Under the pieces are notes generated by a model. That model did no database searches. It was not told where the DNA came from and worked only from the letters and a program-made list of their open reading frames with translations. Shown in pieces: positions 12,592-29,455 of a stretch of DNA of 64,000 nucleotides. The translations under genes were made by a program, and so were the position numbers. The DNA is from Sphingomonadaceae bacterium 3R27C6 (GTDB lineage: Bacteria; Pseudomonadota; Alphaproteobacteria; Sphingomonadales; Sphingomonadaceae). Location of the stretch: the NCBI GenBank assembly GCA_005503215.1, contig SCNS01000014.1, positions 1 through 64,000 of the forward strand, given 5' to 3'. Position 1 is the first letter of the stretch, and the number at the start of each line of letters is the position of its first letter.

Positions 12592-14634
12592 TCAGTCCCG
12601 TGAAAGCCGCATCGCTGCGCCCCCGCCCGGCGCGAGCCAAAGCTTGTACGTATCGCCCTTCTTCACCTTGACCCTGTCATAGGCGATGCGGTGGCGCGCG
12701 TCGGTCAGATAGGTGGCGCCCTCGCCATCTTTCCAGACCGCCATGGTATAGGTTTTTCCCGGCTCGAGGAAATCGAAGCGCAGCGTCAGCGTGCGTTCGG
12801 TCGCGTCGTTGACCCCGCCGACATACCAGTCCGCGCTGCCCCGGTCCTTGCGCGCGAAGATCGCATAATCGCCGACCTCACCCGCGATCAAGCGGCTTTC
12901 GGACCAGTCGGCGGGAACCGCCTTGATGAATTCCAGCTCGCGCGGATGCGCTTCCAGATTCTCGACGAAATCGGCGGCCATCTGGATCGGCGAATAGATG
13001 GCGAGATAGAGCCCGAGCTGCTTCGCGAGCGTCGAGGCGAGCGGCGCCTTGTTCGCGCCCTCGAGGCTCAGCACGCCCGGCGTGAAGTCCATCGGCCCCG
13101 ACAGCATGCGCGTATAGACGAGCGTCGGTTCATGGTCCGGGCCGTTCGCGAACGCGCCCCACGCGTTATATTCCATGCCGCGCGCGCCCTCGCGCGCAAC
13201 CCAATTGGGATATGTGCGGCGGAGGCCCGTATCCTTGATCGGTTCGTGCGGATTAACCGCGACATGATATTTGGCGGCGGTTTCGACGACCTTCAGATGG
13301 TGCTGCACCTGTCGCTGTCCGTCGTGCCATTCCATCGCCGTCGTTCCGGGTGTCGCGCCGGGCGCAATGATCCCGCCGGCGTCGGCGACATAGCCGGTCT
13401 TGACCGTCCCGACGCCGAGCTGGCCATAGAGCTTCATCGCGTCGTCGAGCTGCGCCTCATAGACCGCGATATTGCCGCCGGTCTCGTGGTGGCCGATCAA
13501 CTGGACGCCCTTCTTGCGCGCATAGTCGGTCACGGCTTTCAGGTTGAAATCGGGGGTGGCCTCGGTAAAGCTGAATTCGTCGCCATGGCCGAACCAATTG
13601 CCGTTCCAGCCCTTGTTCCAGCCCTCGACAAGCACGCCGCCGAAGCCGTGCTTCGCTGCGAAGTCGATATATTGCTTGGTGCGCTCGGTTGTCGCGCTAT
13701 GCTTGGGTCCCTCGGCCCAGCTCCAGTCGCCGCGGATCATCCCCCACCAGATGCCGATATATTTCATCGGCTTGAACCAGCTGACATCACCCAGCTTGTT
13801 CGGCTCGTTGAGGTTGAGTTCGAGGTCGCTTGCGACGAGGCCCGCTGCATTGTCGGCGATGCGGATGGTGCGCCACGGCGTCGCGAACGGCAGGTCGCGA
13901 ATGACGCGCGCGCCTTTCGAGGACGGCGAGAGCGTGGCGCGGAACTTCTGCCCCTCGGCGCGCTTGAACCACATGCCGGCATAATCGACGAGCGCGGCTT
14001 CGTGGAACGCAAGATGCGTCCCGTCGTCGAGGCGCATCGTGATCGGCGTGTGCGCCGTCGCGACCGCGTCGATCGGCGTTTTTTGATAAATTTGCTCGTA
14101 GCGGTTCCACTCGCCGCCGGTGATCCACCACGCGGTGCCCTTGGGCGCGATGTCGAATTCGGTGATTTCGTCGATGATCTTCGCGGTCGGGAGGCCCGCC
14201 TGTTCGGGGAGTTCGTAGCGGAAGCCGATGCCGTCGTCGAAGAGGCGGAAGCGGACGTTCATCGCATGGCCGCCCCAGCTTTCGTTCTGGCGGAAGCGGA
14301 CGAGCAGTTCGTTGTGCCGGTCGCGGACGAAGCGGCGTTCGCCCCACGGCTGTTCCCAGCGCGTGTCGCCGCTCGCGCGCTCGACGCTTTCGATCGCGAA
14401 GCCGCGCTGTAGTCCGATGCGGTCCGCGAGGATGAAGCCGAGCTTCGACGGCGCGATCAACAGCTTGCCCTTACGCGACAGCGACCAGGTCGGCCGCTGG
14501 TCATTGTCGGTCGAAACCGTCAGCACGATGCCGCCGTCGGGCGACGATGCCGTCTGCTCGGGCCGCGTGTCCTGCGCGAAGGCGGGCGCCGCTGCCGCGA
14601 CGAGCAGCGGGAGGGCGGCGAACAGGCTACGCAT
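12592..14634 (-). CDS. Glycoside hydrolase family 97 alpha-glucosidase (SusB-like), exported
   Basis: A 680-residue protein with a cleavable signal (RSLFAALPLLVAAAAPAFAQ). GH97 inverting alpha-glucosidases use two Glu bases and a Glu acid. The equivalents here are probably Glu384 (HHETGGN), Glu464 (NPHEPI) and Glu488 (GARGMEYN); the last two are 24 residues apart, as in SusB. This points to the inverting type acting on maltodextrins. Its ATG overlaps the stop of the upstream GH13 gene by one base (TGATG), making it the last gene of the glucan operon. Confidence 0.93.
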   Translation of the reverse strand: MRSLFAALPLLVAAAAPAFAQDTRPEQTASSPDGGIVLTVSTDNDQRPTWSLSRKGKLLIAPSKLGFILADRIGLQRGFAIESVERASGDTRWEQPWGERRFVRDRHNELLVRFRQNESWGGHAMNVRFRLFDDGIGFRYELPEQAGLPTAKIIDEITEFDIAPKGTAWWITGGEWNRYEQIYQKTPIDAVATAHTPITMRLDDGTHLAFHEAALVDYAGMWFKRAEGQKFRATLSPSSKGARVIRDLPFATPWRTIRIADNAAGLVASDLELNLNEPNKLGDVSWFKPMKYIGIWWGMIRGDWSWAEGPKHSATTERTKQYIDFAAKHGFGGVLVEGWNKGWNGNWFGHGDEFSFTEATPDFNLKAVTDYARKKGVQLIGHHETGGNIAVYEAQLDDAMKLYGQLGVGTVKTGYVADAGGIIAPGATPGTTAMEWHDGQRQVQHHLKVVETAAKYHVAVNPHEPIKDTGLRRTYPNWVAREGARGMEYNAWGAFANGPDHEPTLVYTRMLSGPMDFTPGVLSLEGANKAPLASTLAKQLGLYLAIYSPIQMAADFVENLEAHPRELEFIKAVPADWSESRLIAGEVGDYAIFARKDRGSADWYVGGVNDATERTLTLRFDFLEPGKTYTMAVWKDGEGATYLTDARHRIAYDRVKVKKGDTYKLWLAPGGGAAMRLSRD

Positions 14635-16274
14635 CAATTTGTTCCTTCGAATTTCAGCCAGAGGGCACCGCAAGGCGACAAATGCGCCGGATCGGCGCCG
14701 TTCAGTGCAACGACCGGAACGCCGCCCGCGCCATGGGCCGCGACATCGATCGTCCCGCCGCCGAGATTGAAGAGGCAGCGGATATGCTCGCCGTCCGCGA
14801 TCCGGTCGAAAACGAGCAGGTCGCCCTCGGCGATCCAGCGCGCGTCGCGGCCGATCCGCAGCGCCGGGTGCGCGGCGCGCAGCGCGACCAGCTGGCGCGT
14901 CAAGTTAAGCAGCGACGCGGGATCGTCCTGCTGCCGGTCGACCGCGAGCGCGCCGTGCGCGGCGCCGAGCGGCAACCACGGATCGACGGCCGAAAAGCCC
15001 GCATGCGTTTCGCCCGCCGCCCACGGCAGCGGCGTGCGCGCGCCGTCGCGCGACAGCGTCAGCGGCCAGTTCTTGAGCGCCTCGGGGTCTTTCACCAGCT
15101 CGAACGGAATTTCGACCTGATCGAGCCCCAATTCCTCGCCATTATAGAGGATGATATTGCCGCGCAGCGCGCAGAGCAGCGCCATCTTCATTCGCGCATA
15201 GGCCGCGGCGTCGACGCCTTCGGGGGTCCATCGCGACAGCGCGCGCGGCGCGTCGTGATTTTCGAACGCCCAGCTCGGCCAGCCAATTCCGGGCGTATCG
15301 GGCCATTGTTCGGCCGCCTCGCGCACCAGCTGCGGCGTCAGCCGGTCGGCATAGAGGAAGTCGAAGCCATAGGCGCTGTTCAGCCGGCGCTCGCCCGCGG
15401 TGAACAGCTTCATCTCGCGCACCGCATCGTCGCCGCCAACCTCGGCGACGGTGAAGCTGCCCGGATATTGATCGGTCAGCGCGCGGATGCGTTCGAGGAA
15501 GATCGGAATGTCGGGGTGCGACTGGTTATGGATTTTCTGCTGGAAATCGAACGGCCGGGTACGGACCTTGTTCGACGGCGGCGCGGGCGGATTGTCGCGC
15601 AGTTCAGGATCGTGCATCGAGAAGTTGATCGCATCGATGCGAAACCCGTCGACGCCGCGGTCGAGCCAAAAACGCACGACGCCGAGCAACGCGTCCTGCA
15701 CCTCCGGGTTATGGACGTTGAGCTGCGGCTGCGAGCCGAGGAAATTGTGCATATAATATTGGCCGCGCCGCGCGTCCCACGTCCACGCCGGGCCGCCGAA
15801 CACCGACTGCCAGTTGGTCGGCGGCGACCCGTCGGGCTTGGCATCGGCCCAGACATACCAGTCGGCCTTGTCATTGTCCTTGCTCGCGCGGCTCTCCGCG
15901 AACCAGGCGTGACGATCGGAGGTGTGCGCGAACACAAGATCGGTCGTCACCTTCAGTCCCAGCGCATGCGCGCGCGCCACCAGCGCGTCGAAATCGGCGA
16001 GCGTGCCGAAGATCGGGTCGACGCCCTCATAGTCGGCGATGTCATAGCCGAAATCGTCCATCGGCGATGGGTAGAAGGGCGACAGCCAGATCGCCTCGAC
16101 GCCGAGGCTCGCGATATAGTCGAGCCGCGCGGTGATGCCGGCGAGGTCGCCGATCCCGTCGCCGTTCGAATCGGCGAAACTGCGCGGATAGATCTGATAG
16201 ATCGCGGCGCCCTTCCACCACGGCGCCTCTGCGGCGGCGGACAAGCTGGATTCCTGAACGAGGGGCTGGGTCAT
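14634..16274 (-). CDS. GH13 alpha-glucosidase (GH13_23-like)
   Basis: A 546-residue enzyme without a convincing signal peptide, so probably cytoplasmic. The four GH13 regions are readable: TDLVFAHTS (His117), DGFRIDAINF (nucleophile Asp214), VAEVGG (acid/base Glu278) and FENHDAPRA (Asp341). The segment after region II (FSMHDPELRDNPPAPPSN) is typical of exo-acting proteobacterial alpha-glucosidases that cleave maltose and short oligomers. The start at 16274 leaves an 18-base gap from the upstream stop; an in-frame ATG at 16310 would overlap that gene. It would finish hydrolysis of sugar imported by the locus transporter. Confidence 0.93.
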   Translation of the reverse strand: MTQPLVQESSLSAAAEAPWWKGAAIYQIYPRSFADSNGDGIGDLAGITARLDYIASLGVEAIWLSPFYPSPMDDFGYDIADYEGVDPIFGTLADFDALVARAHALGLKVTTDLVFAHTSDRHAWFAESRASKDNDKADWYVWADAKPDGSPPTNWQSVFGGPAWTWDARRGQYYMHNFLGSQPQLNVHNPEVQDALLGVVRFWLDRGVDGFRIDAINFSMHDPELRDNPPAPPSNKVRTRPFDFQQKIHNQSHPDIPIFLERIRALTDQYPGSFTVAEVGGDDAVREMKLFTAGERRLNSAYGFDFLYADRLTPQLVREAAEQWPDTPGIGWPSWAFENHDAPRALSRWTPEGVDAAAYARMKMALLCALRGNIILYNGEELGLDQVEIPFELVKDPEALKNWPLTLSRDGARTPLPWAAGETHAGFSAVDPWLPLGAAHGALAVDRQQDDPASLLNLTRQLVALRAAHPALRIGRDARWIAEGDLLVFDRIADGEHIRCLFNLGGGTIDVAAHGAGGVPVVALNGADPAHLSPCGALWLKFEGTN

Positions 16275-16291
16275 TATGGCGTGGTCTTCGC

Positions 16292-18085
16292 TTATTCGCT
16301 GGCTTGGCAAATGATGGTGCCGAAAGCGGGGAGGGATAGATGGAGGCTGCCCGGCGCAGCGGGGCTTGCCGGACAGTCACCGTGGAGTGCGGTAAAGCCC
16401 GCACTTTTCATATCGATGGCAATATTCGCCGACAGCGGCGCCGCCGACGTGTTGAAGGCGAGCAGCACTTCGCGGCCCGTGACCGGATCGAAGCGCGATA
16501 CTGCGAGCAGTCCGGGCTTTTCGGAAAAGGCGCGAACCTTTGTCGCGCCGCGCGTCAGCGCGGGTGTCTTGCGCCGGATTTCGGACAGCGCCGCGATATG
16601 GCGATAGAGCGGATGCGCGGGGTCGAAATTGGCGGTCGCGGTCGTCGCGTCGCTGCCGATCAGGTCATTGTCGTTATACGCCGCGACCTGCGACGCGAAC
16701 ATATCCTCGCGCGCGAGCTGGTCCTTGTCGTCCGACACGAACCCCTGCTCGTCGCCATAATAGATCGTCGGTACCCCGCGCAGCGTCAGCAGCATCGCAT
16801 GGCCGAGCATCACGCGCTGCAGCAGTTCGGCCTCGCTCGCACCCGGGTTCGCCGCCTTCACGAACATCGCAAAGCGGCCCATGTCATGATTTCCGAGGAA
16901 GGTCGGCAACCCTAGCGCCGCCCCTGCCCCGCCCTTGTAGAGCGCGTCGCCGTCGAACAGCTTGGCGAACTGGTCTGTCCCCTTCGTTCCGCTCACCGCA
17001 TCGATCGCGGCGCGCGCGAAACCGAAATCGAGCACCGCGGGCAAGCCCGCCGCATGCGTGTACCAGGCGAGCGCGCCCGGATCGACCGCGTCGACATAGA
17101 CTTCACCGAAGATGTGGAAATTGGGGATGCCGCGCGCCTTCGCGCGCGCCTGCATCGCGGGGACGAAGGCTTGCCAGAATTCGGGGTTCACATGCTTCGC
17201 GGTGTCGATGCGGAAACCGTCGATCCCGAATTCGTCGATCCAGCGGCCGTAGATGTCGATAAAGCCCTGCACGACGCGCGGGTGCTCGGTCGCGAGATCG
17301 TCGAGCCCGGCGAAATCGCCATAGAGCGAAGATTCGCCAACCCAGTCGCTGTTGCCGCGGTTGTGATAATAGATCGGGTCGTTGAGCCAGGCGGGGACCT
17401 TCACCCGTTCCTCGCCCTTCGGCACAACGGGCGTGTAGGCGAAAGCCGGGTCGGTCAGCTTCTGCCAGTTGCCGGCGTCGGCGACATGATCGTCCGCGAA
17501 ACCCGGATTGACCGGTGCGCCCTTCACCCCGCTGCGCCGCGAGAAGGGATAGTCCGCAAGGCTGCGGTATCGGAACCCGCCGGCCGCGCCCTCCTTATAG
17601 GTGATCACATCGGCGGTATGGTTGGCGATGATGTCCATATAGACCTTCATCCCGCGCGCGTGCGCCGCGTCGACGAACGCCTTGAATTCGGCGTTGGTGC
17701 CGAAATGCGGGTCGACCTGCGTGAAATCGGTGACCCAATAGCCATGATAGCCCGCGCTTTCGTCGCCCTTCGGGCCCTGCACCGGCTTGTTCTTGAAGAT
17801 CGGGGCGAACCAGATCGCGGTCGTCCCCATGCCCTGGATATAGTCCAGCCGCCTGGTCAGCCCCGCGAGGTCACCGCCATGGAAAAAGCCCTTGGCCGTG
17901 GGGTCGTAGCCGGTCTGGAGCCGGTCGCCCTTCAGCCCGCCGCGGTCGTTCTTCGGATCGCCATTCTCGAAGCGGTCGGGAAGGACGAAATAGATGATTT
18001 CGTCCTCGGGCGGACGTTGGCGGTAATCCGCAGCGGGCGCGGCGCCCGAAAGGCTCATCGCGATAATCGATGCAAACAGGCTCAT
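16292..18085 (-). CDS. GH13 alpha-amylase-family enzyme, exported (cyclomaltodextrinase/neopullulanase-like)
   Basis: A 597-residue enzyme with a signal peptide (MSLFASIIAMSLSGAAPAA). GH13 motifs are DIIANHT (His156), DGFRIDTAKH (nucleophile Asp294), FGEVY (acid/base Glu328) and FLGNHDMGR (His400, Asp401). YFVLPDRFENGDPKNDRGG near the N-terminus is characteristic of periplasmic alpha-amylases next to sus/mal-type receptors. It starts inside the end of the halogenase gene with a 4-base ATGA overlap. It probably cuts larger alpha-glucans in the periplasm after TonB-receptor uptake. Substrate preference is inference. Confidence 0.93.
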   Translation of the reverse strand: MSLFASIIAMSLSGAAPAADYRQRPPEDEIIYFVLPDRFENGDPKNDRGGLKGDRLQTGYDPTAKGFFHGGDLAGLTRRLDYIQGMGTTAIWFAPIFKNKPVQGPKGDESAGYHGYWVTDFTQVDPHFGTNAEFKAFVDAAHARGMKVYMDIIANHTADVITYKEGAAGGFRYRSLADYPFSRRSGVKGAPVNPGFADDHVADAGNWQKLTDPAFAYTPVVPKGEERVKVPAWLNDPIYYHNRGNSDWVGESSLYGDFAGLDDLATEHPRVVQGFIDIYGRWIDEFGIDGFRIDTAKHVNPEFWQAFVPAMQARAKARGIPNFHIFGEVYVDAVDPGALAWYTHAAGLPAVLDFGFARAAIDAVSGTKGTDQFAKLFDGDALYKGGAGAALGLPTFLGNHDMGRFAMFVKAANPGASEAELLQRVMLGHAMLLTLRGVPTIYYGDEQGFVSDDKDQLAREDMFASQVAAYNDNDLIGSDATTATANFDPAHPLYRHIAALSEIRRKTPALTRGATKVRAFSEKPGLLAVSRFDPVTGREVLLAFNTSAAPLSANIAIDMKSAGFTALHGDCPASPAAPGSLHLSLPAFGTIICQASE

Positions 18086-19599
18086 GCGGGCACTCCTGCC
18101 GCGCAATGCTGCGCGATAAAATCCTCGTGGGTCGGCAGATGCGAAGCGGTGCGCGCGACGATCGTTTCGATGTCGGCGAAAAAGCCCGCGAGTTCGTCGT
18201 GCGTGAGCTGGTCGGCCATCGGATGATAGCTGCGCGGCATGATATTCTGCCCCGTCAGCACCTGAAACCAGCCGATCTCGATGAACAATTCGTCGCCCTC
18301 GCGAACGATCTGGCCCTGGCTTTTGAACAGCTCGATCTTGCGCGCCAGCGTTTCGGGAATGCCCATCTCGCGGCACCGGATCCAGAAGGGCGCGTCGGTG
18401 CGCTGGTTGGCGTGATAGTGGAGGATGACGAAGTCGCGGATGCGTTCGTAATCAAAGCGGACCCGGCGGTTGTAAGCATCGATATTGGCGGCATCGAAAT
18501 CGCGATCGGGAAAGTGCGCGAGCAGCTTGGCGATGCCGTTCTGGATCAGGTGGATGCTCGTCGATTCGAGCGGCTCGAGGAATCCCGAGGCGAGGCCCAG
18601 CGCGACGACGTTGCCGTTCCATGCCTTCCTGCGCATCCCGGTCCGGAAACGCAGCGTTCGCGGCTCGGCGAGCGGGCGGCCTTCGATATTGGCGAGCAGG
18701 ACCGCAGTCGCCTCATCCTCGCTGATGAAGTCGCTGCAAAAGACATGGCCGTTGCCGGTGCGGTGCTGGAGCGGGATGCGCCATTGCCAGCCTGCCTTGT
18801 GCGCGATCGCCTGCGTATAGGGCCGCGCCGGGCCGGCATTTTCGCTCGGCACCGCAATCGCGCGGTCGCAGGGAAGCCAGTGCGTCCAATCCTCGAAGCC
18901 GGTTTCGAGCGCCTCCTCGATCAGCAGCGCGCGAAAGCCCGAGCAGTCGATGAAGAGTTCGCCGTCGATCGCGGTGCCATTTTCCAGCACGACAGCCTCG
19001 ACATGGCCGCTTTCGCCACTGCGCCGGACACCGGCGATCTTGCCTTCGGTCCGTTCGACCCCGGCGGCTTCGGCAACCTTGCGCAGATAGGCGGCATAAA
19101 GCGCGGCGTCGAAATGAAAGGCATAGGCGATGCCGTCGAGGCTGGTGTTCGGGATTTGCGGCAGCCGCGCGAAGCGGTTCTGCTGCCCTGCGGTTTCGTT
19201 CAGCGAATAATCGCCGAGCCGTCCCGCGACGCCCTCGTTCCGGCCGCGGAGCCAATATTGCTGGAACGGCAGCATGCCGAGGCTGCGCCCGATCTGCCCG
19301 AAGGCGTGCATATAGACGTCGCCGACCCGACCCCAGTCGTGGAACTGGATGCCAAGCTTAAAGGTGCCGCCCGTTTCGCGAATGAACTCATTTTCGTCGA
19401 TGCCGATCAGCGCGTTGAACAGGCGGATCGCGGGGATCGTCGCCTCGCCGACCCCGACGGTGCCGATCTCGTCGCTTTCGACCAGCCGGATCGACAGATT
19501 GTCCATCGTGCGCGACAGCGCCGCGGCGGCCATCCAGCCCGCGGTTCCGCCACCGACGATCACCACCTTCGTGATGCGGTTCTCACCCACGCTGCCCAT
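18082..19599 (-). CDS. Flavin-dependent tryptophan-halogenase-like protein
   Basis: A 505-residue FAD protein of the PrnA/RebH superfamily. Visible are the GGGTAGWM dinucleotide motif at 16-23, the catalytic-type Lys81 (TFKLG), the WxWxIP motif at 271-276 (WQWRIP) that excludes monooxygenation, and the Glu345 equivalent of PrnA Glu346 in LEPLESTSI. All core halogenase residues are therefore kept. It sits between a TonB receptor gene (50-base gap) and a GH13 gene (4-base overlap). Halogenase homologues next to TonB receptors of sugar loci are common in sphingomonads, Caulobacter and xanthomonads; their real substrate is unclear. Confidence 0.92.
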   Translation of the reverse strand: MGSVGENRITKVVIVGGGTAGWMAAAALSRTMDNLSIRLVESDEIGTVGVGEATIPAIRLFNALIGIDENEFIRETGGTFKLGIQFHDWGRVGDVYMHAFGQIGRSLGMLPFQQYWLRGRNEGVAGRLGDYSLNETAGQQNRFARLPQIPNTSLDGIAYAFHFDAALYAAYLRKVAEAAGVERTEGKIAGVRRSGESGHVEAVVLENGTAIDGELFIDCSGFRALLIEEALETGFEDWTHWLPCDRAIAVPSENAGPARPYTQAIAHKAGWQWRIPLQHRTGNGHVFCSDFISEDEATAVLLANIEGRPLAEPRTLRFRTGMRRKAWNGNVVALGLASGFLEPLESTSIHLIQNGIAKLLAHFPDRDFDAANIDAYNRRVRFDYERIRDFVILHYHANQRTDAPFWIRCREMGIPETLARKIELFKSQGQIVREGDELFIEIGWFQVLTGQNIMPRSYHPMADQLTHDELAGFFADIETIVARTASHLPTHEDFIAQHCAAGVPA

Positions 19600-19649
19600 T
19601 CCTCTCGTCAGGAAGCGGGCCGGACAAGGTGGCCGGCCCGCTTATTCCG

Positions 19650-22400
19650 TCAGAACTTGTAGGTGATACCGGCCATGAAGTTGCGACCATAATTCTGATA
19701 GTCGCGGATCTGGCGCGGATCATTGTTGTAATAGGTCACGAACGGCTCGTTGGTCAGGTTCGACGCCTGCAGCAGGACCCCCAGCCCCTCGAGCGCGCCG
19801 CTCTGGAAGGTGTAGCCGATCTGCGCATCGACGACGAATTCGCTTTTCGCCATGAACATGTCGCGTGCGAGACTGATCGTCGACACTTCGGCGAGGAATT
19901 TCGAGCGGTAGCGGCCCGACGCGCGGACCTGGAACCCGTCCTTTTCGAAATAGGCGGTTCCGTTGATGACCCATTTCGACAGGCCGGGCATCGAAATCGG
20001 CTTTTCTTCGCCTTCACGCACGCGGCTCTTGGTATAGGAGGCGCTGCCGAGCACCCCGAAGCCGTCGAGCGCCTGGGTGAAGTTGGCGAAGGGCAGCGAG
20101 AAGGAGGCCTCGGCGCCGTAGACGCGACCGGCATTGCCATTCAGCCACTGCTTGCTGAGCCCGGCCCGCGTACCGGCCGTCCCGCCGTCGGGGACCTCGA
20201 AGTCGGTGAAATCGAACGGATTGATCTGACGGTAGATATAATTTTCGAGATATTTGTAGAAGCCGCCGACCGAGACATAGCCGCCCTGCCCGAAATATTT
20301 CTCGAGCCCGATATCGACCGTGTCGGCCATCAGCGGACGCAGCTTCGCATTGCCAAGATCGAGCGACCAGGGCGAGGCGTTGACGTCGGTGTTGTTGCGC
20401 TTCGACGTATCGAAATTGACGCCGCCGCCGGGCTTCAGCTGGTCCATGCGCGCCCGCGCCAAAACGCGCGCTGCACCGAAGCGCAGGAAGGTGTTGTCGG
20501 CGAATTCGACCGACAGGTTCATGCTGGGCAGGATGTCGGTATATTTGTCGCCATCGGTCACCGGCGTCGACTGGGTGACGCCGCCGACGACCTGCGCATA
20601 GAAGCTCGAGCCCGTCTGGTCCGAATGAATGACCTGGACGCCGACGTTGCCGCGGATCGGAGTGCTTCCCGCATCGGCGTCGAAATTCGCCTGGACGAAG
20701 CCGGTCAGCACCTTTTCGCGGATCGTATAATCGTTGAAGACGCGCGCCGGGTCGAAGCCCGCGCCGTCGGTCAGATTATAATTCCCGTCATTGTAGAAAC
20801 GCCAGCTGTCGAACGCGACCATGCCGGGGATGCCGATGAAATCGAGCGACACCGGGTCATAGAGATAGTCGGCGGGCACCGGCGTATTCGCCGGATAATT
20901 TTTGCTGGTCAGCACGAAGCCGCGGTCGTCGAGGCTTTTCTTGCGGTCCGAATAATTGGCGCCGACGCGGATGCTGCTGAGCACGCCGTCGAGTTCCTGC
21001 GTCGCCTGCAGACGCAGCGATTTCAGCTGGTCCTTGACGCGCGGCGTGTTGACGAACCCGTCCTGACAGTTTGCCACCGCGCCGCCGCAGCTGTTCCAGC
21101 CCTGCGGATCGGTGATCACGAACAAATTGGGATCGGAATAGTCGAGCGACGGGTCGAACATGATCCCGCCGTTCGGACGCATCTCGAACCCCAGCGCGGT
21201 TTCGCGCGCGCCGACGCCCGCGCCGCGGCCGGTGCCGAGATAGATTTCGAGATTTTCCTCGGTCTTCTTGATCCGCGAATAGCCAAGGTCGAGTTCGAGC
21301 GTCAGTTTCTCATTGGGCTTGAACTGCGTGTTCCAGCCGCCCGCGATGATCGTCGAGTTGCGGTGGACGACGTCGTTGCGCATCACCGCCTCGGTGCCCG
21401 ACCAGACGCCCTTGGTCACCAGACCGTCCTCGACGGTGAAGCCGGGCTGGAGCGTCGAATTGCCCCAGAACAGCGGGAATTCGATGCCGCGCAGGCGCTG
21501 TTCGTCCTTGAACTTCGACCAATAGCCGTCGATCGTCGTGTGGAATTTGTCGCTCGGTTCCCATTCGACGACCGCCATCACGCCGTCGCGCTTGAGCTCG
21601 TTCGATTTCACATAGGGCTTGGCGCCGCCGATGACGAAAGCGGTGTTCGTGCCGTCGGTCGCCTCGGGATAGCCCCAGGCGTTGAAGCGTTCCTCGGCGG
21701 TCGGCGACTGCATGCGCGCATAACCGATCGCCCAGCCGAGCGTGCCGTCGGCATTCTGGTCGATATAGGAGAGGTTGGCGCGATAACCCTTGTTCGAAAT
21801 ATCGGGGTTGAGCTTGCCAAGGTCGTTGATCTCGAAGCGCGCCCCCGCGGCGATCGCGCGCTTGCCATAAGCGAGCGGGCGCACCGTCCGCATGTCGATC
21901 GTGCCACCGATCGCCTGCCCGATCAGCGACGCGTCGGGGGTCTTGTAGACGATGGCGCCGTTCAAAAGTTCGGAGGGATATTGGTCGAGCTCGACGCCGC
22001 GATTGTTGCTCGCCGAAACCTGTTCGCGGCCGTTGAGCAGCGTCGTGGTGAAATCGGGGGCAAGGCCGCGGATCGACACGACATTGGCGCGGCCGTCGAG
22101 GCGCTGCGTCGCAAGGCCCGGCAGGCGCGAGAGCGATTCGGCGATCGACAGGTCGGGCAGCTTGCCGATATCCTCGGCCGAGACGACCTCGACGATCGAG
22201 GTGCTGTTCTTCTTCGCCTGAACCGAATTGTTGATCGCGCCGCGGATGCCGCTGACGACGATTTCGCCGTCGACCGGCGCCTCGTCGACGGGCGCGGTGT
22301 TCGCGTCCTGCGCCATCGCGGCGCCAGGCAGCAAAACGGTCAAGGCAAGGCCGAGCGCGATGGCGCTGACACCGCGGTTGAGGTTGTTCGGCATGGTCAT
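19650..22400 (-). CDS. TonB-dependent outer-membrane receptor of the alpha-glucan locus
   Basis: A 916-residue receptor with signal peptide (ending LLPGAAMAQ), a TonB-box-like region (GEIVVSGIRGAINNSVQAKK), a plug domain (VSAEDIGKLPDLSIAESLSRLPG, VSIRGLAPDFTTTLLNGR) and a long beta-barrel ending in aromatic YKF. The plug subtype with IGKLPDLSIAESL is the one linked to sugar uptake and halogenase partners in this group. The start at 22400 (MTMPNN) begins the signal; a second ATG at 22394 is possible. It is first in the operon with the halogenase and three glycosidases, so maltodextrin-like sugars are the likely ligand. Confidence 0.93.
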   Translation of the reverse strand: MTMPNNLNRGVSAIALGLALTVLLPGAAMAQDANTAPVDEAPVDGEIVVSGIRGAINNSVQAKKNSTSIVEVVSAEDIGKLPDLSIAESLSRLPGLATQRLDGRANVVSIRGLAPDFTTTLLNGREQVSASNNRGVELDQYPSELLNGAIVYKTPDASLIGQAIGGTIDMRTVRPLAYGKRAIAAGARFEINDLGKLNPDISNKGYRANLSYIDQNADGTLGWAIGYARMQSPTAEERFNAWGYPEATDGTNTAFVIGGAKPYVKSNELKRDGVMAVVEWEPSDKFHTTIDGYWSKFKDEQRLRGIEFPLFWGNSTLQPGFTVEDGLVTKGVWSGTEAVMRNDVVHRNSTIIAGGWNTQFKPNEKLTLELDLGYSRIKKTEENLEIYLGTGRGAGVGARETALGFEMRPNGGIMFDPSLDYSDPNLFVITDPQGWNSCGGAVANCQDGFVNTPRVKDQLKSLRLQATQELDGVLSSIRVGANYSDRKKSLDDRGFVLTSKNYPANTPVPADYLYDPVSLDFIGIPGMVAFDSWRFYNDGNYNLTDGAGFDPARVFNDYTIREKVLTGFVQANFDADAGSTPIRGNVGVQVIHSDQTGSSFYAQVVGGVTQSTPVTDGDKYTDILPSMNLSVEFADNTFLRFGAARVLARARMDQLKPGGGVNFDTSKRNNTDVNASPWSLDLGNAKLRPLMADTVDIGLEKYFGQGGYVSVGGFYKYLENYIYRQINPFDFTDFEVPDGGTAGTRAGLSKQWLNGNAGRVYGAEASFSLPFANFTQALDGFGVLGSASYTKSRVREGEEKPISMPGLSKWVINGTAYFEKDGFQVRASGRYRSKFLAEVSTISLARDMFMAKSEFVVDAQIGYTFQSGALEGLGVLLQASNLTNEPFVTYYNNDPRQIRDYQNYGRNFMAGITYKF

Positions 22401-22718: not shown

Positions 22719-23753
22719 ATGGGGCGCCAGCCCTCGGCCAAGCCGACGAGTTTCGACATCGCCTATCTGGCGGGCGTCTCGCAGCCGACGGTTTCACGCG
22801 CGCTGCGCGGCAGCAAATCGGTCAGCGCCGCGACGCGCGCGAACATTCAGCGCATCGCGCAGGAACTCAACTACACCGTCGACAAGAATGCTTCGAGCCT
22901 GCGCTCGCAGCGCACCCACACGCTCGCCTTGCTCTTCTTCGAGGATCCGAACCCCGACGAATCGATGATCAACCCCTTCTTCCTGTCGATGCTGGGATCG
23001 ATCACGCGCGAATGCGCGCGGCGCGGTTACGACCTGCTGATCAGTTTCCAGCAGATGCACAATGACTGGCACGTCACCTATCAGGACAGCCACCGCTCGG
23101 ACGGCATCATCCTGCTCGGTTACGGGGATTATCAGCTCTATCTCACCAAGCTCGAGCATCTGGTCGAGATGGGGACAAAGTTCGTGCGCTGGGGATCGGT
23201 GTCCGAAGACGGGATCGGGCTGACCGTCGGGTCGGACAATGTCGGCGCGGGCGAGCAGGCGGGCGCGCACCTGGTCGAGATCGGGCGGCGGCGTATCGCC
23301 TTTCTCGGCGATGCGTCGGACCATGCGCCCGAATTTCAGGATCGGTACGACGGGCTGTGCCGCGCGATGCGCGCCGCGGCCCTCGAACCCGACCCGGCGT
23401 TGCAGCGCGATGCGGTGTCGTCGGAGGATTCGGGCTATGCCGCCGCAAGGTCGCTGATCGAAAGCGGCCGGCCTTTCGATGCGGTGTTCGCCGCAAGCGA
23501 CCTGATCGCGATCGGCGCGATGCGCGCGCTCGCCGAAGCCGGGCTGCGGCTGCCGCAGGACGTCGCGATCATCGGCTTCGACGATATTCCCGCCGCCAGC
23601 CTGACCACGCCGACATTGACCACGGTGATGCAGGATATGAAGGGCGCGGGGACATTGCTCGTCGACGCTCTGCTTGCGCGCATCGACGACCGCCCGGTCG
23701 AACAGCGGATCTTGCCGGCCCGGCTGATCCGGCGCCGGAGCACGGCCGTCTAA
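22719..23753 (+). CDS. LacI-family regulator of the alpha-glucan locus
   Basis: A 344-residue repressor/activator. The N-terminal HTH (FDIAYLAGVSQPTVSRALRG, about residues 11-30) and hinge (NYTVDKNASSLRSQRT) are standard; residues 60-340 form the periplasmic-binding-like sensor (DGIILLGYG, AVFAASDLIAIGAMRAL, IIGFDDIPAASLTTPTLTT). The start at 22719 follows GGGAGAGAGA. Matching palindromes flank the gene at 22545 and 23761, so it probably controls the receptor operon, itself and the MFS gene. It is comparable to maltose regulators of Caulobacter and sphingomonads; the inducer is not shown by the sequence. Confidence 0.92.
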   Translation: MGRQPSAKPTSFDIAYLAGVSQPTVSRALRGSKSVSAATRANIQRIAQELNYTVDKNASSLRSQRTHTLALLFFEDPNPDESMINPFFLSMLGSITRECARRGYDLLISFQQMHNDWHVTYQDSHRSDGIILLGYGDYQLYLTKLEHLVEMGTKFVRWGSVSEDGIGLTVGSDNVGAGEQAGAHLVEIGRRRIAFLGDASDHAPEFQDRYDGLCRAMRAAALEPDPALQRDAVSSEDSGYAAARSLIESGRPFDAVFAASDLIAIGAMRALAEAGLRLPQDVAIIGFDDIPAASLTTPTLTTVMQDMKGAGTLLVDALLARIDDRPVEQRILPARLIRRRSTAV

Positions 23754-23760
23754 CGCCAAC

Positions 23761-23772
23761 GTATTCGTATAC
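23761..23772. promoter_or_regulatory. LacI-type operator before the MFS transporter gene
   Basis: GTATTCGTATAC differs from the divergent operator GTATACGTATAC at one base. It lies 7 bases after the regulator stop and about 90 bases before the transporter start, so the transporter probably has its own regulated promoter. Confidence 0.65.
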
Positions 23773-23858
23773 GTAGCCGCACTACGCTTGCCCTGCCCGG
23801 TGTGCGCTGCAACACCCGCACCAACGCGAACCGCGACAGCGGCCGCAAGGGGAGACGC

Positions 23859-25355
23859 ATGATGGAAAAGCCGAAGCAGGGCTTTGCCGGCCTATGGAAT
23901 ATCAGCTTCGGCTTTTTCGGCATCCAGATCGGCTTCGCGCTGCAAAATGCGAATATGAGCCGGATATTCCAGTCGCTGGGCGAGGATATCGAACGCCTCC
24001 CCGGCCTGTGGGTCGCCGCGCCGCTGACCGGGCTGCTCGTCCAGCCGATCGTCGGGCATATGAGCGACCGGACCTGGCTCGGCCGGCTCGGGCGCCGCCG
24101 TCCTTATTTTCTCGCCGGCGCGATCCTTGCCGCGATCGCGCTGTTCGTCATGCCCGAAAGCCCCGCGATCTGGTTCGCCGCGATGATGCTGTGGATCCTC
24201 GACGCCTCGCTCAACATCTCGATGGAACCCTTCCGCGCCTTCGTCGGCGACATGCTGCGCAAGGACCAGCACAGCGTCGGCTATGCGGTGCAGACCGCGT
24301 TCATCGGCGCGGGCGCCGTCGTCGGGTCGCTGTTCCCCTCGCTGATGGAGGCGATGGGCGTCGCGAATGTCGCGCCGCCCGGGCAGATTCCCGATACGGT
24401 GCGCTATGCCTTCTGGTTCGGCGGGATCGCGCTGTTCCTCGCGGTGCTGTGGACCGTCGTCACAACGGGCGAATATAGCCCCGAACAGATGGCGGCCTTC
24501 GAAGCCGGATCGCCCGGCGACGGGTCTCCGGTCCGCGCGCTCGCATCGCACAGCTATGGCGCCAGCATGCTCTGGATCGGCGCGGGACTGCTCATCCTCC
24601 TCGCCCAGCATCATTTCGCGCTGCTTCGCGAAGTATTGCTGCTCGGCGCGCTGCTCATCGGCTACGGCCTTGCAAGCATTGTCGCGATCGCGCTGGCGCG
24701 GCGCGGCAACGACAAGAATATGCTGTCGAGCATCGTCGGGGATTTCGCCGGCATGCCCCCGCTGATGAAGCGGCTGGCGCTTGTCCAGTTCTTCAGCTGG
24801 TCGGCGCTGTTCATCATGTGGATCAACACCACCCCGATCGTCGCCCAATATCATTTCGGAACGACCGACGCCGCGAGCGCCGCCTATCAGGACGCGGGCA
24901 ACTGGGTCGGCCAGCTGTTCGCGATCTATAACGGCGTCGCCGCAGTCGCGGCGCTGACCCTGCTCCCCTGGCTCGCGCGCCGCTTTGGACAGGCGCGCAC
25001 GCACATGGTCGGGCTGGCGTGCGGCGCGGCGGGATATGCCAGCTTCTTCCTGCTGCGCGATCCGTCGCAGCTGATCGTCAGCGAAATCTTCATCGGCATT
25101 TTCTGGGCGTCGGTCCTCGCCATGCCCTATGCGATCCTCGCCTCCAGCCTGCCGCAAGCCAAGCTCGGCATCTATATGGGGCTCTTCAATGTCTTCGTCG
25201 TCGTCCCGCAATTGCTCGTCGCAACGGTGATGGGCTCGATCATGAAAGCGCTGTTTCCTGGCGAGCCCATCTATACGATGGCCTTCGCTGCCTTTGCCCT
25301 GCTGCTTGCAATCGCTGCGATGACCCGCGTCGACGCCAAAACCAGCCAGGGCTGA
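23859..25355 (+). CDS. MFS sugar transporter (maltose/sucrose type)
   Basis: A 498-residue inner-membrane protein with about twelve hydrophobic segments. SDRTWLGRLGRRRPYFLAGA is the loop 2-3 signature of the GPH/SLC45-like sugar transporters used for maltose in alphaproteobacteria, and LDASLNISMEPFRAFVGDM is typical of the same group. The start was set at 23859 behind AAGGGGAGA; an adjacent ATG at 23862 is equivalent. Lying after the LacI gene and its own operator, it would move maltose or maltodextrins released in the periplasm into the cytoplasm. Confidence 0.9.
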   Translation: MMEKPKQGFAGLWNISFGFFGIQIGFALQNANMSRIFQSLGEDIERLPGLWVAAPLTGLLVQPIVGHMSDRTWLGRLGRRRPYFLAGAILAAIALFVMPESPAIWFAAMMLWILDASLNISMEPFRAFVGDMLRKDQHSVGYAVQTAFIGAGAVVGSLFPSLMEAMGVANVAPPGQIPDTVRYAFWFGGIALFLAVLWTVVTTGEYSPEQMAAFEAGSPGDGSPVRALASHSYGASMLWIGAGLLILLAQHHFALLREVLLLGALLIGYGLASIVAIALARRGNDKNMLSSIVGDFAGMPPLMKRLALVQFFSWSALFIMWINTTPIVAQYHFGTTDAASAAYQDAGNWVGQLFAIYNGVAAVAALTLLPWLARRFGQARTHMVGLACGAAGYASFFLLRDPSQLIVSEIFIGIFWASVLAMPYAILASSLPQAKLGIYMGLFNVFVVVPQLLVATVMGSIMKALFPGEPIYTMAFAAFALLLAIAAMTRVDAKTSQG

Positions 25356-25365
25356 CCGTCCGCCT

Positions 25366-27066
25366 TCATCCCGGCCAAGGCCGATTATATATCTCGGTCG
25401 GCCCCGGATATTCGCTGCCATCGTCCTTCCCGACCTCGCGCGCGATCAGCGCATTGGCCATGGCGTTGAGGCGCAGCAGATTTCGTCGTTGATCCGGATG
25501 CGATGCCAGGTTGACGATTTCATTGGGATCGGCCTGCGTATCGTAAAGTTCGAGGTCGTTATTCCGCGACAGCTCCGCCCAGTTTCGCGGCTGCTGGTGA
25601 TGCGCCGGCGCGAAATAGCGCGCGAACTTCCAGCGGCCGTCATGCACCCCGCGGTGCAGTCGCCGGCGCGAGAGATCGAAACGGTCCGTGAAGGGGGCGG
25701 TCGCGGGCTGTCCCGCCTTCGGCGCCCAGCCATAACCCACCGCATAGTTGAACAAATGCCCCCGAATGTCGCGTTCGGTCCGGGCAGCGGGGTCCGCCAG
25801 CAAGGGCGTCATATCGACCCCCGGCAGATTCGGACAATGCTCCTTCCGCCAGCCGGCATCCTTGCCAGCGAGCGCGAGTAGGGTCGGCGCGATGTCGACC
25901 GCGCTCATCAGGCCGCGCGACCGTCGTCCGCCCGGCACGTCGGGATGGACGATCATCATCGGCACGTTGGTTTCCTCGCGATAGATGGTGCCGCCCTTTT
26001 GCCGCATCCCGTGGGCGCCGGCGCGTTCGCCATGATCGGAGGTGAAGAGGATGATGGTGTTTTCCAACTGGCCGCTGGCTTCCAGCGCCCACAAAAGCTG
26101 GCCGATCCGCCGGTCCATGTCGCGAATGCAATTGTAGTAATAGTTGCGGAAGCGGCGCCACGACGCTTCGTCGGCGAGTTCCAGCGCGCCATAGGTGCGG
26201 ACGTTCGATGCCGCGATGCCGCGATGCGCCTCGGGCTTGCCGCTCAGATCGTCGCGGTGGAAGCTTTCGGGCAGATCGAAGCCATTATCCTCGGCATAGA
26301 GCGGGTCGCCGGGTTCGCGGCGCAGCGGCCCCAGAAGATTGGGATGCGCGCGCGATGCCGTCTGTTTTCCGGTCGCATCATAGAACATGATGTCGTGCGG
26401 ATTGAGCAGGCCGACGACCATGAACCAGGGTTTTCCGGCCGCCTTGTCGCGTTCCTTGAAATCGAGGATGCTGCGCGAGGCGTCGGCGGCGATATATTGA
26501 TCGTGCCGATAGCCGTCCCACGTCAGCCCGACCGCCTCGCCGTCGAAGCCGTAATCGTCGAAGCCATATTCTTCCATGGCCTTCTCGGTGGCCGGGTAGA
26601 TCATGCCCGACACCTGGTTCCAGTTCCGCTTTTCGTTGATCGGCGAAAGGTGCCATTTGCCCTTGTAGCTGGTGTAATAACCCGCTGCGCGCATCATATG
26701 CCCCAGCGTCGGCAGGTCGGTCGGCAGCACCGGATCGTCGGCGCCGCTCGAGTTCAGATAGATGCCCGTGCGCTGCGTGTGATGCCCCGTGAAGATCGTC
26801 GAGCGCGACGGGCTGCACGGCGTCGTCTGGACATGATAATTTTCGACGAGCAGCCCGCGCGCCATCAGTTCGCGGTGCCCCGGCAGCTTTTCGAGCAGCC
26901 CCTTCGGGAAGCTCGCGATACTCTGTTCCTGATCGGTGACGATCATCAGGATGTTGAGCTTGCGCCCGTCCGCCGCGGACACGCTGGCCCGCGCGCCCGA
27001 CGCCGCGAGCGCCCCGGCGCCGCCCAGCCCGCCTACGAATGTGCGGCGGTCAACAGTCCAAACCAT
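25366..27066 (-). CDS. Tat-exported type I sulfatase
   Basis: A 566-residue sulfatase. The N-terminus DRRTFVGGLGGAGALAASGA is a Tat signal. The active-site motif CSPSR puts the Cys to be converted to formylglycine at residue 84, and metal-binding residues are in LMIVTDQEQ and FTSDHGERAGAHGM. This Cys-type motif needs a formylglycine-generating enzyme, which is not in the window. Length and the KGKWHLSPINEKRNW segment resemble arylsulfatase A-like or carbohydrate sulfatases. It lies 34 bases after the TonB receptor gene on the same strand, so the two form an operon for a sulfated substrate. It converges on the MFS gene with a 10-base gap. Confidence 0.92.
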   Translation of the reverse strand: MVWTVDRRTFVGGLGGAGALAASGARASVSAADGRKLNILMIVTDQEQSIASFPKGLLEKLPGHRELMARGLLVENYHVQTTPCSPSRSTIFTGHHTQRTGIYLNSSGADDPVLPTDLPTLGHMMRAAGYYTSYKGKWHLSPINEKRNWNQVSGMIYPATEKAMEEYGFDDYGFDGEAVGLTWDGYRHDQYIAADASRSILDFKERDKAAGKPWFMVVGLLNPHDIMFYDATGKQTASRAHPNLLGPLRREPGDPLYAEDNGFDLPESFHRDDLSGKPEAHRGIAASNVRTYGALELADEASWRRFRNYYYNCIRDMDRRIGQLLWALEASGQLENTIILFTSDHGERAGAHGMRQKGGTIYREETNVPMMIVHPDVPGGRRSRGLMSAVDIAPTLLALAGKDAGWRKEHCPNLPGVDMTPLLADPAARTERDIRGHLFNYAVGYGWAPKAGQPATAPFTDRFDLSRRRLHRGVHDGRWKFARYFAPAHHQQPRNWAELSRNNDLELYDTQADPNEIVNLASHPDQRRNLLRLNAMANALIAREVGKDDGSEYPGPTEIYNRPWPG

Positions 27067-27100
27067 CTCAGGGCCTTTCCATGTCCAATCGATGCCGTGC

Positions 27101-29362
27101 CTAGAAACGCACGACCGCTTCCAGATTGACCGTCCGCGGCGCGTTGATCATCACGACATGGCTGTTCCCGCCGAGCAGCGGCGTGTTGATCGCCTGGCTG
27201 AAGGTCACCTCGTTCGTCAGGTTACGCCCGACGAGTGCGAGTTCCCACGCGCCATCTTCCTTGCGGATGGCGAGGCGCGCATCGAACTTCGCATAACCCG
27301 GCTGCGTATTGAGCGGGTTCAGGTCACCCTGCAGATAGGATTTCGACGTGTAGTCGGCGGCGCCGCGGGCGCTGACGATCAGGTCTTCGCTCACTGGCAC
27401 GTCGAACTGCACATAGCCCGATGCCTTCCATTCGGGCGCGCGGGTCAGGCGCACGCCGGACAGATTGTTCGTCGCGGGCGTGCAGGTCGCCGGGGCATTG
27501 TAGAGGCAGGGGCCGCCCGGATAGTCGTTATATTTCGCATCCAGGTACGCCCCCGTGGCGCCGAAGCTGACGACCGAGCTCGGCCGGTAGCGCGCCTCGA
27601 CCTCGACGCCTTGCGCGGTCGCCTTGGCGGCGTTGCCGGTGATGAAGGCCGTGCCGTTGTACGACGACACCTGCAGATTGGCGAAGCGCGTCCGGAACAG
27701 CGCGATGTCGAGGTCGAGCTTGCGGTCGAACAGGCGCATCTTCGTGCCGAGTTCCCACGCCCGCGCGCGCTCGTCGTCGAAGTCGAAACGGCCGTTATTG
27801 TTGCGGATATTATAGAGGAGCAGGCCGTCGTTCGACAGGAACCCCCCGCCCTTCGTCCCCGTCGCATAGCTGACATAGGCCGAGACCGCCGGGCTGAATT
27901 CGTAACGGAGGCGGAGCGAATAATCCCAAAGTTTCTCGGTGCGGCTGCCGCTGATGTCGAAATCCAGATTGTTCGCGGGGATGCGCGGACCGACATTGGT
28001 GCTCGTCCCGCGCGCCTCCTTCTTTTCATGGCTGTAGCGCAGGCTGCCGCTGAAGGTCAGCGCATCGGTCAGTTCGGCCTCGACGATCGCAAAGGGCGAC
28101 AGCGACCAGGACGACTGGGTGAAGCCGCGCTTCCCCTCGGCCTGCGGCAGCGTCGTCCCCACCAGATTGCCATTGAAGCTGACGAGCTGCAAAATATCGA
28201 GGTCGGCGTCGGCATAGGTGGCGCCGAATGCGAGGTTGATACCCGCCGCGACATCGCGCGAGACGCGCAGTTCCTGAAAGAACTGGCTGCTCTCTTCGGC
28301 CTGCAATGTGTTGAGCAGGTTGATCGGGCCGGGAATCGTGTTGAACGTACGCTCCGAATCCACCGCCTGATAGGCGGTGATCGAGGTGACCGTCCAGTCG
28401 CCCGGGGTCCAGTTCATCGTCATCGCGCCGGTGCGCGACTTGGTGACATCATATTCCTTGGGGAAGCCGCGGCTGAACCGCCAGAAACCGGGCTTGTCCT
28501 GCGCATCGGCGCCGCCGCTGGCATTGCGGATGATGTTGCAGAGGTTGCAGTTCGGATTGCCGATATTGTTATAGACGGCGTTCGATCCGTTGATCTCGTT
28601 GCGGAACCCCTCGGCCTTGAGCAGGATTTCGAAATCGTCGCTCGGTTCCCACAGCAATTGCGCGCGCCCCGAGCGGTATTTCGACCCATTGTCGTCGAAA
28701 CCCGTCAGCCGGTTTTCGATATAGCCGTCGGCCTGCCCGGCGCCGCCGCTCAGCCGGACGCTCAGCGTGTCGCTGATCGGCCCCGACAGATAGCCGCTGA
28801 AATTCATGCCGCCCTCGGCCAGTTCGGTTCCGGCGCGGAACTCGGCCTCGAAATCGCGGGTCGGGCGGCGCGTCACCATGCTGATCGCGCCGGCATTGGT
28901 GTTCTTGCCGAACAGCGCACCCTGCGGTCCGCGCACGACCTCGATGCGTTCGACATCGAGGAACGGCACCTGCAACGACCGCGCGCGGCTGGAATAGACG
29001 CCGTCGACGAACAGCCCGACCGATTGCTCGAACGCCAGATTGTTCGCGCCCGATCCGAGCCCGCGGATCGTGATCGCGTAATTGCCGTTGGTGTTGTCGA
29101 TCTGGAGATTGGGAACCGACGACTGAAGATCGGTGAACAGGCGCTGGCCCTGCTGCTCGATCGCGGCGCCGGTGACGACGCCCACCGAAATCGGCACTTC
29201 CTGAAGCGTCTGCGGGCGGCGCGAGGCGGTGACGATGATGTCTTCGCTAGCCGCATCGGTCGCCGCGGCCGCTTCGGCCTCCTGCGCCGCCGCGGGGTGG
29301 GCAGCCGCGATCATCAAGCTTCCGGTGGCGAGCGCCGTCAAGGCCCGGTGGTGGCGTGTCAT
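27101..29362 (-). CDS. TonB-dependent receptor linked to the sulfatase
   Basis: A 753-residue outer-membrane receptor with a signal peptide ending AAAHPAAAQ, a TonB-box region (DIIVTASRRPQTLQEVPISV), a plug (ITIRGLGSGANNLAFEQSVGLFVDGVYSSR, VRGPQGALFGKN) and a barrel ending NLEAVVRF. This plug type is the FecA/CirA-like class abundant in sphingomonads, distinct from the receptor at 19650-22400. The start at 29362 begins the signal peptide; a TTG at 29449 would add 29 unlikely residues. It is co-transcribed with the sulfatase and divergent from a TetR gene. The ligand is unknown. Confidence 0.92.
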   Translation of the reverse strand: MTRHHRALTALATGSLMIAAAHPAAAQEAEAAAATDAASEDIIVTASRRPQTLQEVPISVGVVTGAAIEQQGQRLFTDLQSSVPNLQIDNTNGNYAITIRGLGSGANNLAFEQSVGLFVDGVYSSRARSLQVPFLDVERIEVVRGPQGALFGKNTNAGAISMVTRRPTRDFEAEFRAGTELAEGGMNFSGYLSGPISDTLSVRLSGGAGQADGYIENRLTGFDDNGSKYRSGRAQLLWEPSDDFEILLKAEGFRNEINGSNAVYNNIGNPNCNLCNIIRNASGGADAQDKPGFWRFSRGFPKEYDVTKSRTGAMTMNWTPGDWTVTSITAYQAVDSERTFNTIPGPINLLNTLQAEESSQFFQELRVSRDVAAGINLAFGATYADADLDILQLVSFNGNLVGTTLPQAEGKRGFTQSSWSLSPFAIVEAELTDALTFSGSLRYSHEKKEARGTSTNVGPRIPANNLDFDISGSRTEKLWDYSLRLRYEFSPAVSAYVSYATGTKGGGFLSNDGLLLYNIRNNNGRFDFDDERARAWELGTKMRLFDRKLDLDIALFRTRFANLQVSSYNGTAFITGNAAKATAQGVEVEARYRPSSVVSFGATGAYLDAKYNDYPGGPCLYNAPATCTPATNNLSGVRLTRAPEWKASGYVQFDVPVSEDLIVSARGAADYTSKSYLQGDLNPLNTQPGYAKFDARLAIRKEDGAWELALVGRNLTNEVTFSQAINTPLLGGNSHVVMINAPRTVNLEAVVRF

Positions 29363-29443
29363 CCCTCTCTCTCCCATGTTCGCGGCCAACGCCCCCGGAG
29401 GCGCGTTCCCAGCGCCCTCGACTCCGCAGCCTCCCATATTATG

Positions 29444-29455
29444 TATCAAGTGATA
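29444..29455. promoter_or_regulatory. Inverted repeat between TonB receptor and tetR genes
   Basis: TATCA and TGATA flank AG in a clearly AT-rich patch (about 29430-29510) in the 247-base divergent gap. It is a candidate operator or promoter element for the receptor-sulfatase operon. The arms are short, so the call is weak. Confidence 0.3.

Follow-up and report, generated by a model that had tools for sequence, protein, structure and literature searches.

A BrvH/Xcc4156-type halogenase paired with a TonB-dependent receptor in a maltodextrin-type uptake locus of Sphingopyxis

BrvH and the Xanthomonas halogenases are active in vitro, and the structures of BrvH and Xcc4156 have been solved (PMC7336383). 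According to the accessible portions of the two reports on them, the native substrates of BrvH and Xcc4156 are unknown, the substrate site is open, free tryptophan is not halogenated and peptides are possible substrates (PMC7336383; PMC5945002). BrvH, which has a neighbouring halogenase gene, brominates free indole at a low rate (PMC5945002). The word TonB is absent from the text of both reports. QhpG, a halogenase-like flavoprotein, dihydroxylates a protein tryptophan (PMC7876137) and, in the accessible part of PMC11340318, one transposon hit concerns a tryptophan halogenase gene. In the literature searched, outside which most subscription papers lie, no published link of a halogenase to a TonB-dependent receptor (TBDT) of the kind described below was found, and the pairing of halogenases with receptors appears to recur as an arrangement that this literature does not describe. 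Work on N-acetylglucosamine in Xanthomonas and Caulobacter reportedly may mention such genes near TBDTs.

The window, that is, the whole 64,000-nucleotide stretch of DNA analysed, carries what by its gene content is a maltodextrin-type uptake locus of a Sphingopyxis genome, maltodextrin being the probable transported sugar to judge from the enzymes encoded. The operon lies on the minus strand. Its first gene encodes the receptor (TBDT, 19650..22400), which is of the TIGR01782 Xanthomonas/Caulobacter type (580 bits, with a Plug domain), and the second a 505-residue flavin-dependent halogenase of the BrvH/Xcc4156 type (HAL, 18082..19599; PF04820). There follow the genes of a GH13 alpha-amylase family protein (16292..18085; PF00128, scanned as 16292-18079), a GH13 glucosidase-like enzyme (14634..16274; PF00128 and DUF3459) and a GH97 enzyme (12592..14634; PF10566, PF14508 and PF14509). 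Judged by eye, the amylase and the GH97 enzyme have an apparent signal peptide and the glucosidase-like enzyme no obvious one. The HAL stop codon and the amylase ATG lie in a 4-base overlap, as read from the sequence. Divergently, on the plus strand, lie the genes of a LacI-type regulator (22719..23753; PF00356, PF13377) and an MFS-type transporter (23802..25355; PF07690, PF13347). All the parts of a CUT-type locus are present by Pfam and TIGRFAM: a TBDT, glucan hydrolases, a regulator and an inner-membrane transporter. The initial annotation, which had placed the halogenase in an operon with a TonB receptor and glucan enzymes, holds in coordinates and gene order. It had counted three alpha-glucosidases or amylases; two of these are GH13 enzymes, the third hydrolase belongs to GH97, and the divergent LacI and MFS genes (22719-25355) complete the locus. 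A sulfatase gene and a second TBDT gene, of another class, adjoin the MFS gene (25366-29449).

The nearest named locus is that of Sphingopyxis sp. MSC1_008, whose HAL is 94% identical. The genome that contains the window has four near-full and two short, weak matches to PF04820. Its contig C11 carries a second module with the order TBDT, HAL, SapC, Cupin_8, HAL, GH16, LacI, and the remaining near-full match is on C18, a contig without a TIGR01782 TBDT above the cut-off.

TBDT and HAL are separated by an intergenic hairpin with a G+C-rich stem (19600..19649, minus strand; fold of -26.5 kcal/mol, z of -3.2). When 97 distinct intergenic sequences of 25-160 bases between TBDT and HAL were compared with mononucleotide shuffles, 75 gave z < -2. 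The hairpins are strong and their sequences differ among loci. Such a hairpin would fit the production of much receptor and little enzyme.

HAL matches PF04820 with 656 bits, over positions 1-456 of the 458 in the profile. Direct reading places GGGTAG at residues 16-21, in agreement with the FAD-binding pattern GxGxxG, Lys81, WQWRIP at residues 271-276, Glu345 and Ser346; Lys81, the WxWxIP stretch and Glu345 are all matched in an alignment with a PrnA chain. An AlphaFold2 model of HAL, built from 69 alignment rows, has a mean pLDDT of 95.7, and the top 45 rows of its structure comparison are halogenases (Z 43.0 to 57.5). Xcc4156 ranks first (6y1w; Z 57.5, rmsd 1.2 over 491 residues, 49% identity) and BrvH third (6frl; Z 53.5, rmsd 1.4 over 488 residues, 46% identity); Z is 55.5 for 9luq, 43.7 for RebH (2oa1) and 42.0 for MibH. 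The PDB sequence matches are 9luq (592.8 bits), Xcc4156 (526.9), BrvH (475.3), LooH (299.3) and PrnA (298.3). HAL is closest, by sequence and by structure, to the BrvH/Xcc4156 subgroup, and as a protein it is an additional member of a subgroup already known. Loops were compared by sequence alignment, with positions taken from the accessible part of PMC7336383. HAL aligns with BrvH without a gap across BrvH 146-160 and 434-444, and exceeds Xcc4156 by 6 residues in the first substrate loop. In this alignment HAL has short loops, as for an open substrate site, and lacks the long C-terminal substrate loop of the free-tryptophan halogenases PrnA and RebH, whose alignment to HAL ends at residue 428 of the window's protein; the loop has the same length as in BrvH.

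Of the 217 distinct HALs in loci up to L249, 132 are the next gene after a TBDT on the same strand. Lys81, Glu345, Trp271 and Trp273 are kept in 132/132 of these TBDT-following HALs. Gly16, Gly18 and Gly21 are present in 120, the remaining 12 rows being gapped there, and Ser346 is replaced by Ala in 13. The simplest reading would be purifying selection on the halogenation residues. The FAD motif, Lys81, WxWxIP and Glu345, reported at the outset as intact, are thus borne out by direct reading, the PrnA alignment, the halogenase-fold model and the relatives, and the sequence of HAL gives no indication of the loss of halogenation that had been considered alongside. The same residues bear on the alternative that HAL, with the fold and residues of a halogenase, is a QhpG-like hydroxylase or redox enzyme acting on a receptor-linked protein. 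QhpG provides a precedent, in that the tryptophan it dihydroxylates belongs to a partner protein (PMC7876137), and HAL matches the QhpG and LodB profiles, though weakly and far under their cut-offs. Given that the halogenase Lys and Glu are invariant among the TBDT-adjacent HALs and that BrvH and Xcc4156 are published as halogenating (PMC5945002, PMC7336383), such an activity, argued by analogy, would be unlikely.

A TBDT close to that of the window (E <= 1e-120) is found in 37 of 60 genomes of the genus and is absent from the other 23. HAL adjoins the TBDT in all 37, so that the co-occurrence with this receptor type raised by the initial annotation held in every one of these genomes. The distance is within 700 bp in 36; it is 1263 bp in G026, because the TBDT is there in two frames. 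In G049 the TBDT is divided between two contigs. Thirteen genomes have no HAL at E <= 1e-60 and none of them has a close TBDT, three having a TBDT match at E <= 1e-60 of only 30-32% identity. Two of the thirteen (L255 and L256) keep a GH97 gene (54%) beside ABC transporter parts, a LacI gene and a GH1-like gene, the names other than GH97 being judged by similarity and by eye, and these gene runs contain neither a TBDT nor a HAL. In L256 the opposite strand carries, about 6 kb off, a gene resembling a TBDT that shares 29% identity with a receptor fragment. Where related ABC parts occur in Rhodanobacter loci, both an Oar-like TBDT and HAL are present. From these gene arrangements, HAL's partner looks like the receptor rather than the glucan enzymes.

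Six genomes that had not been picked by receptor contain 40 HALs by count, of which 34 have a listed place. For sixteen of the 34, a TIGR01782 TBDT is no more than 700 bp away, where random placement expects about 1.4%, and for 8 more it is within 7 kb. Conversely, 16 of the 65 TIGR01782 TBDTs of these genomes have a listed HAL within 700 bp and 49 have none; HAL is therefore not required by every such receptor. In the six genomes most listed HALs accompany TBDTs, yet most TBDTs have no listed HAL. Elsewhere, HALs without an adjacent TBDT exist (L130, L149). The 10 of 34 HALs that lie farther than 7 kb from a TIGR01782 TBDT agree with an alternative in which HAL makes or alters a small halogenated aromatic, for instance an indole-type signal, or detoxifies an aromatic entering with glycans, and is simply co-regulated with sugar receptors; the slow bromination of free indole by BrvH (PMC5945002) points the same way. 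Of the ten, however, L076 stands behind another TBDT, and two are located where a mal locus ends, at a distance only just over 7 kb. At the window locus, no biosynthetic or natural-product neighbour of HAL was seen, either by Pfam among 10 window genes or by eye in the gene list. Moreover, as described below, HAL remains with the receptor in loci that serve many different sugars, and the two genes are exchanged jointly. A small aromatic as the target is possible, but doubtful.

The exchange emerges from a comparison of 38 mal loci with complete core genes, in which identity was measured to the window locus. The 31 loci of the genus, 29 of them distinct (L077 and L078 duplicate L041 and L050 in the same genomes), fall into two types, with 23 loci of the window type, 8 of the other and none mixed. 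Between the types, identity is 42-47% for TBDT and 54-58% for HAL, against 82-98% for LacI, 61-90% for GH13a, 78-93% for GH13b and 82-96% for GH97. L070, for example, is 93% identical to the window in LacI, 89% in GH13b and 85% in GH97, yet 43% in TBDT and 57% in HAL. On a tree of LacI, GH97 and GH13b, with SH-aLRT support only, 4 changes of type are needed, as forced by the starred branches. In codon windows along three close pairs, DNA identity is high in LacI and 78-93% in the first 40 TBDT codons, drops across TBDT and HAL, and then recovers; the drop includes the first 40 codons of the amylase in the two pairs compared there. TBDT and HAL have been swapped as a single block in otherwise orthologous mal operons, with at least four type changes.

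Distance matrices of 21 and 23 nonredundant loci give a HAL-TBDT coupling of 0.81 and a partial Mantel correlation of 0.876 (0/5000 permutations). For the seven loci outside both types, among which L075 is of the same genus, the partial HAL-TBDT correlation is 0.39 and 310/5000 permutations are as high; with one locus of each type added it is 0.12 (1150/5000 permutations). Within the window's type the amylase tracks TBDT with a partial correlation of 0.85, versus 0.37 for HAL, and in the other type (7 loci) HAL does not track TBDT (partial correlation 0.05). Since the coupling rests mostly on the two-type block in one genus and the amylase co-varies, it is evidence of block replacement, not proof of molecular co-evolution. 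Divergent blocks suppress internal recombination, so that later exchanges would carry TBDT and HAL together anyway; and since the amylase tracks TBDT, and HAL fails to do so in the other type, physical linkage can explain part of the pattern. HAL might then have a separate use, receptor cassettes having been copied or swapped with whatever came behind. Divergent alleles inherited as a block need no functional tie, and such hitchhiking agrees with the amylase going partly with the block in the window's type and with the weak coupling among distant loci.

Hitchhiking is harder to reconcile with the range of settings in which the pair is found. TBDT-HAL pairs occur in Alphaproteobacteria (including Caulobacterales), Betaproteobacteria and Gammaproteobacteria, and HAL follows TBDTs of three sequence classes. 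The adjacency is kept despite altered orientation in L115 and L135 (gene starts in the relatives come from a home-made gene caller), and HAL is also missing from the two GH97 loci whose gene run has no TBDT. Taken together, these observations make hitchhiking rather unlikely. They also widen the recurrence in sphingomonads noted at first, which is real and was drawn too narrowly.

The sugar enzymes of the HAL-TBDT loci are varied, comprising GH16, GH95, GH43, GH3, sucrose-type and starch-type enzymes. On plasmids, TBDT then HAL is found with GH13 and GH97 in Qipengyuania, with GH95 in Asticcacaulis, with GH3 upstream in Catenovulum and with GH43 and a second HAL in Croceibacterium. Another Catenovulum locus has the order TBDT, 2OG-Fe(II) oxygenase gene, HAL, amylosucrase, with GH32 upstream, and in Sphingomonas parapaucimobilis TBDT and HAL are divergently oriented. 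Altogether 87 named or plasmid loci, with seven plasmid records of which one is without annotation, contain 119 HALs. By the first TBDT profile, 64 directly follow a TBDT and 2 are divergent from one; the rest stand after another HAL (11), after another gene (39) or at an edge (3). With a wider TBDT set, further receptors, Oar-like ones among them, are recognized on these loci, which were fetched because of HAL and therefore show the place of HAL, not how frequently receptors have one. That HAL halogenates an imported sugar or aglycone, as the initial annotation had suggested among other targets, would agree with its sharing an operon with glucan enzymes. The family, however, acts on electron-rich substrates, mostly aromatics, in the accessible part of PMC7336383, and HAL is common to loci with starch-, GH16-, sucrose-, GH95- and GH43-type enzymes. 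This target is disfavoured by the constancy with which HAL accompanies TBDTs for many sugars and by its absence from the two GH97 loci that have ABC parts and no TBDT in the run, and it must be considered highly improbable.

Some TBDT-HAL operons also carry accessory genes, among them Cupin_8 and 2OG-Fe(II) oxygenase types, whose folds are shared by known protein hydroxylases. Genes of SapC and Cupin_8 type, assigned with Pfam confirmation for L037 and L273 only, occur inside such operons, often between two HALs (L037, L164, L165, L167-L170, L173, L181, L273-L280). Twelve HAL-like proteins are without both the catalytic Lys and Glu, and all 12 are encoded directly after another HAL gene (L061:7416-8876, L123:8524-10005, L134:6933-8429, L182:7805-9280 and eight other loci). 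A quick tree groups the 10 nonredundant ones to one side of a branch supported by SH-aLRT 99, although long branches meet; those of L182 and L134 still match PF04820 with >220 bits. Several mal loci carry, close to their downstream end and mostly behind GH97, a member of a second distinct HAL family whose residues are intact (L062:14886-16373, L074:1248-2774, L064, L081, L114, L119, L156, L159). In the Dokdonella MAG locus L086 (7826-11506) the HAL frame is open far upstream, over 1226 codons, probably because a pullulanase-like gene overlaps it in another frame.

The reading I tentatively prefer, while holding it at less than even probability, is that HAL is a receptor-cognate enzyme that would modify its own TBDT precursor, or a receptor-specific polypeptide, before export. 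HAL would be produced together with its own TBDT, would presumably receive FADH2 from a cellular flavin reductase, and would halogenate, or possibly hydroxylate, an aromatic side chain in the cytoplasm. The substrate could be the receptor precursor or another polypeptide specific to the receptor, in either case ahead of export, and the modified receptor might then serve glycan uptake, with some benefit to it. No signal peptide is seen in HAL by eye and the first strand of the model begins at residue 11, so that HAL should act in the cytoplasm, through which the receptor precursor passes before it is exported. An unexpected target linked to the receptor had been among the first proposals; gene pairing and co-replacement, as read from sequences, speak for the link, and chemistry on the receptor is the hypothesis built on it. 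A broader version would turn a large class of orphan halogenases, the BrvH and Xcc4156 types among them, into dedicated TBDT maturases. Each would halogenate or oxygenate an aromatic residue of the receptor it belongs with, ahead of export, in some cases accompanied by SapC, a Cupin_8 oxygenase of JmjC-like kind and a catalytically dead halogenase paralogue; this generalization is distinctly speculative. If it were true, post-translational halogenation of a membrane transporter would take place in ordinary nutrient uptake, and, if the receptor is the substrate, HAL would represent a new kind of receptor maturation in that process.

A residue of the receptor that could be modified was sought by comparing receptors linked and unlinked to HAL. 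Trp435 of TBDT is present in 76% of the linked versus 19% of the unlinked receptors (weighted), raw frequencies that are biased because the linked rows were mostly fetched for HAL; it is also found in 9 of 34 unlinked receptor rows. Phylogeny-controlled pairs number 2.9 for and 0.7 against, of 11, with a median p of 0.5. Among the residues listed, Trp435 leads and none tracks HAL significantly after phylogenetic control.

As a locus, the window resembles the malA cluster of Caulobacter crescentus and the CUT loci of Xanthomonas, in which a TBDT is likewise combined with amylases, a regulator and a transporter for maltodextrins (PMC1790865, PMC3917699). The malA cluster differs in having a glucoamylase (cc2282) where the window has GH97, and in that no halogenase is among the genes named in the accessible part of its description (PMC3917699). 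A halogenase in this cluster was considered and rejected, cc2285 and cc2286 being alpha-amylase family proteins (PMC3917699).

As an enzyme, HAL is related to SrpI (PMC10858898), QhpG (PMC7876137) and MibH (PMC7336383), flavoproteins that, as far as these sources are accessible, modify tryptophan of an encoded peptide or protein. What they act on is a RiPP precursor or a subunit of an amine dehydrogenase, in contrast to the outer-membrane receptor considered here. The best PDB sequence match, 9luq, is a 'Tryptophan halogenase' of Pseudoalteromonas sp. L11, for which the literature search found no paper. Xcc4156 (6y1w, Xanthomonas campestris) is like HAL in fold, length, catalytic residues and the TBDT-operon setting of its type, and BrvH (6frl, Brevundimonas) is like HAL in fold, its type also occurring in TBDT operons. 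For this comparison eight loci of each type were fetched, from 11 listed matches for BrvH and 21 for Xcc4156, and a TBDT operon was found in 8/8 of each. The BrvH-type loci, one of a 97% relative (L265) and seven at 63-66%, have the order TBDT, HAL, HAL, that is, two tandem halogenase genes where the window has one. Two Xcc4156-type loci at 89-90% read TBDT, SapC, Cupin_8, HAL and, unlike the window, are without the GH13/GH97 operon; the six at 62-71% are TBDT operons too, with genes of SapC/Cupin_8 size and start. Pairing with a receptor thus offers a concrete partner for halogenases that lack a published native substrate.
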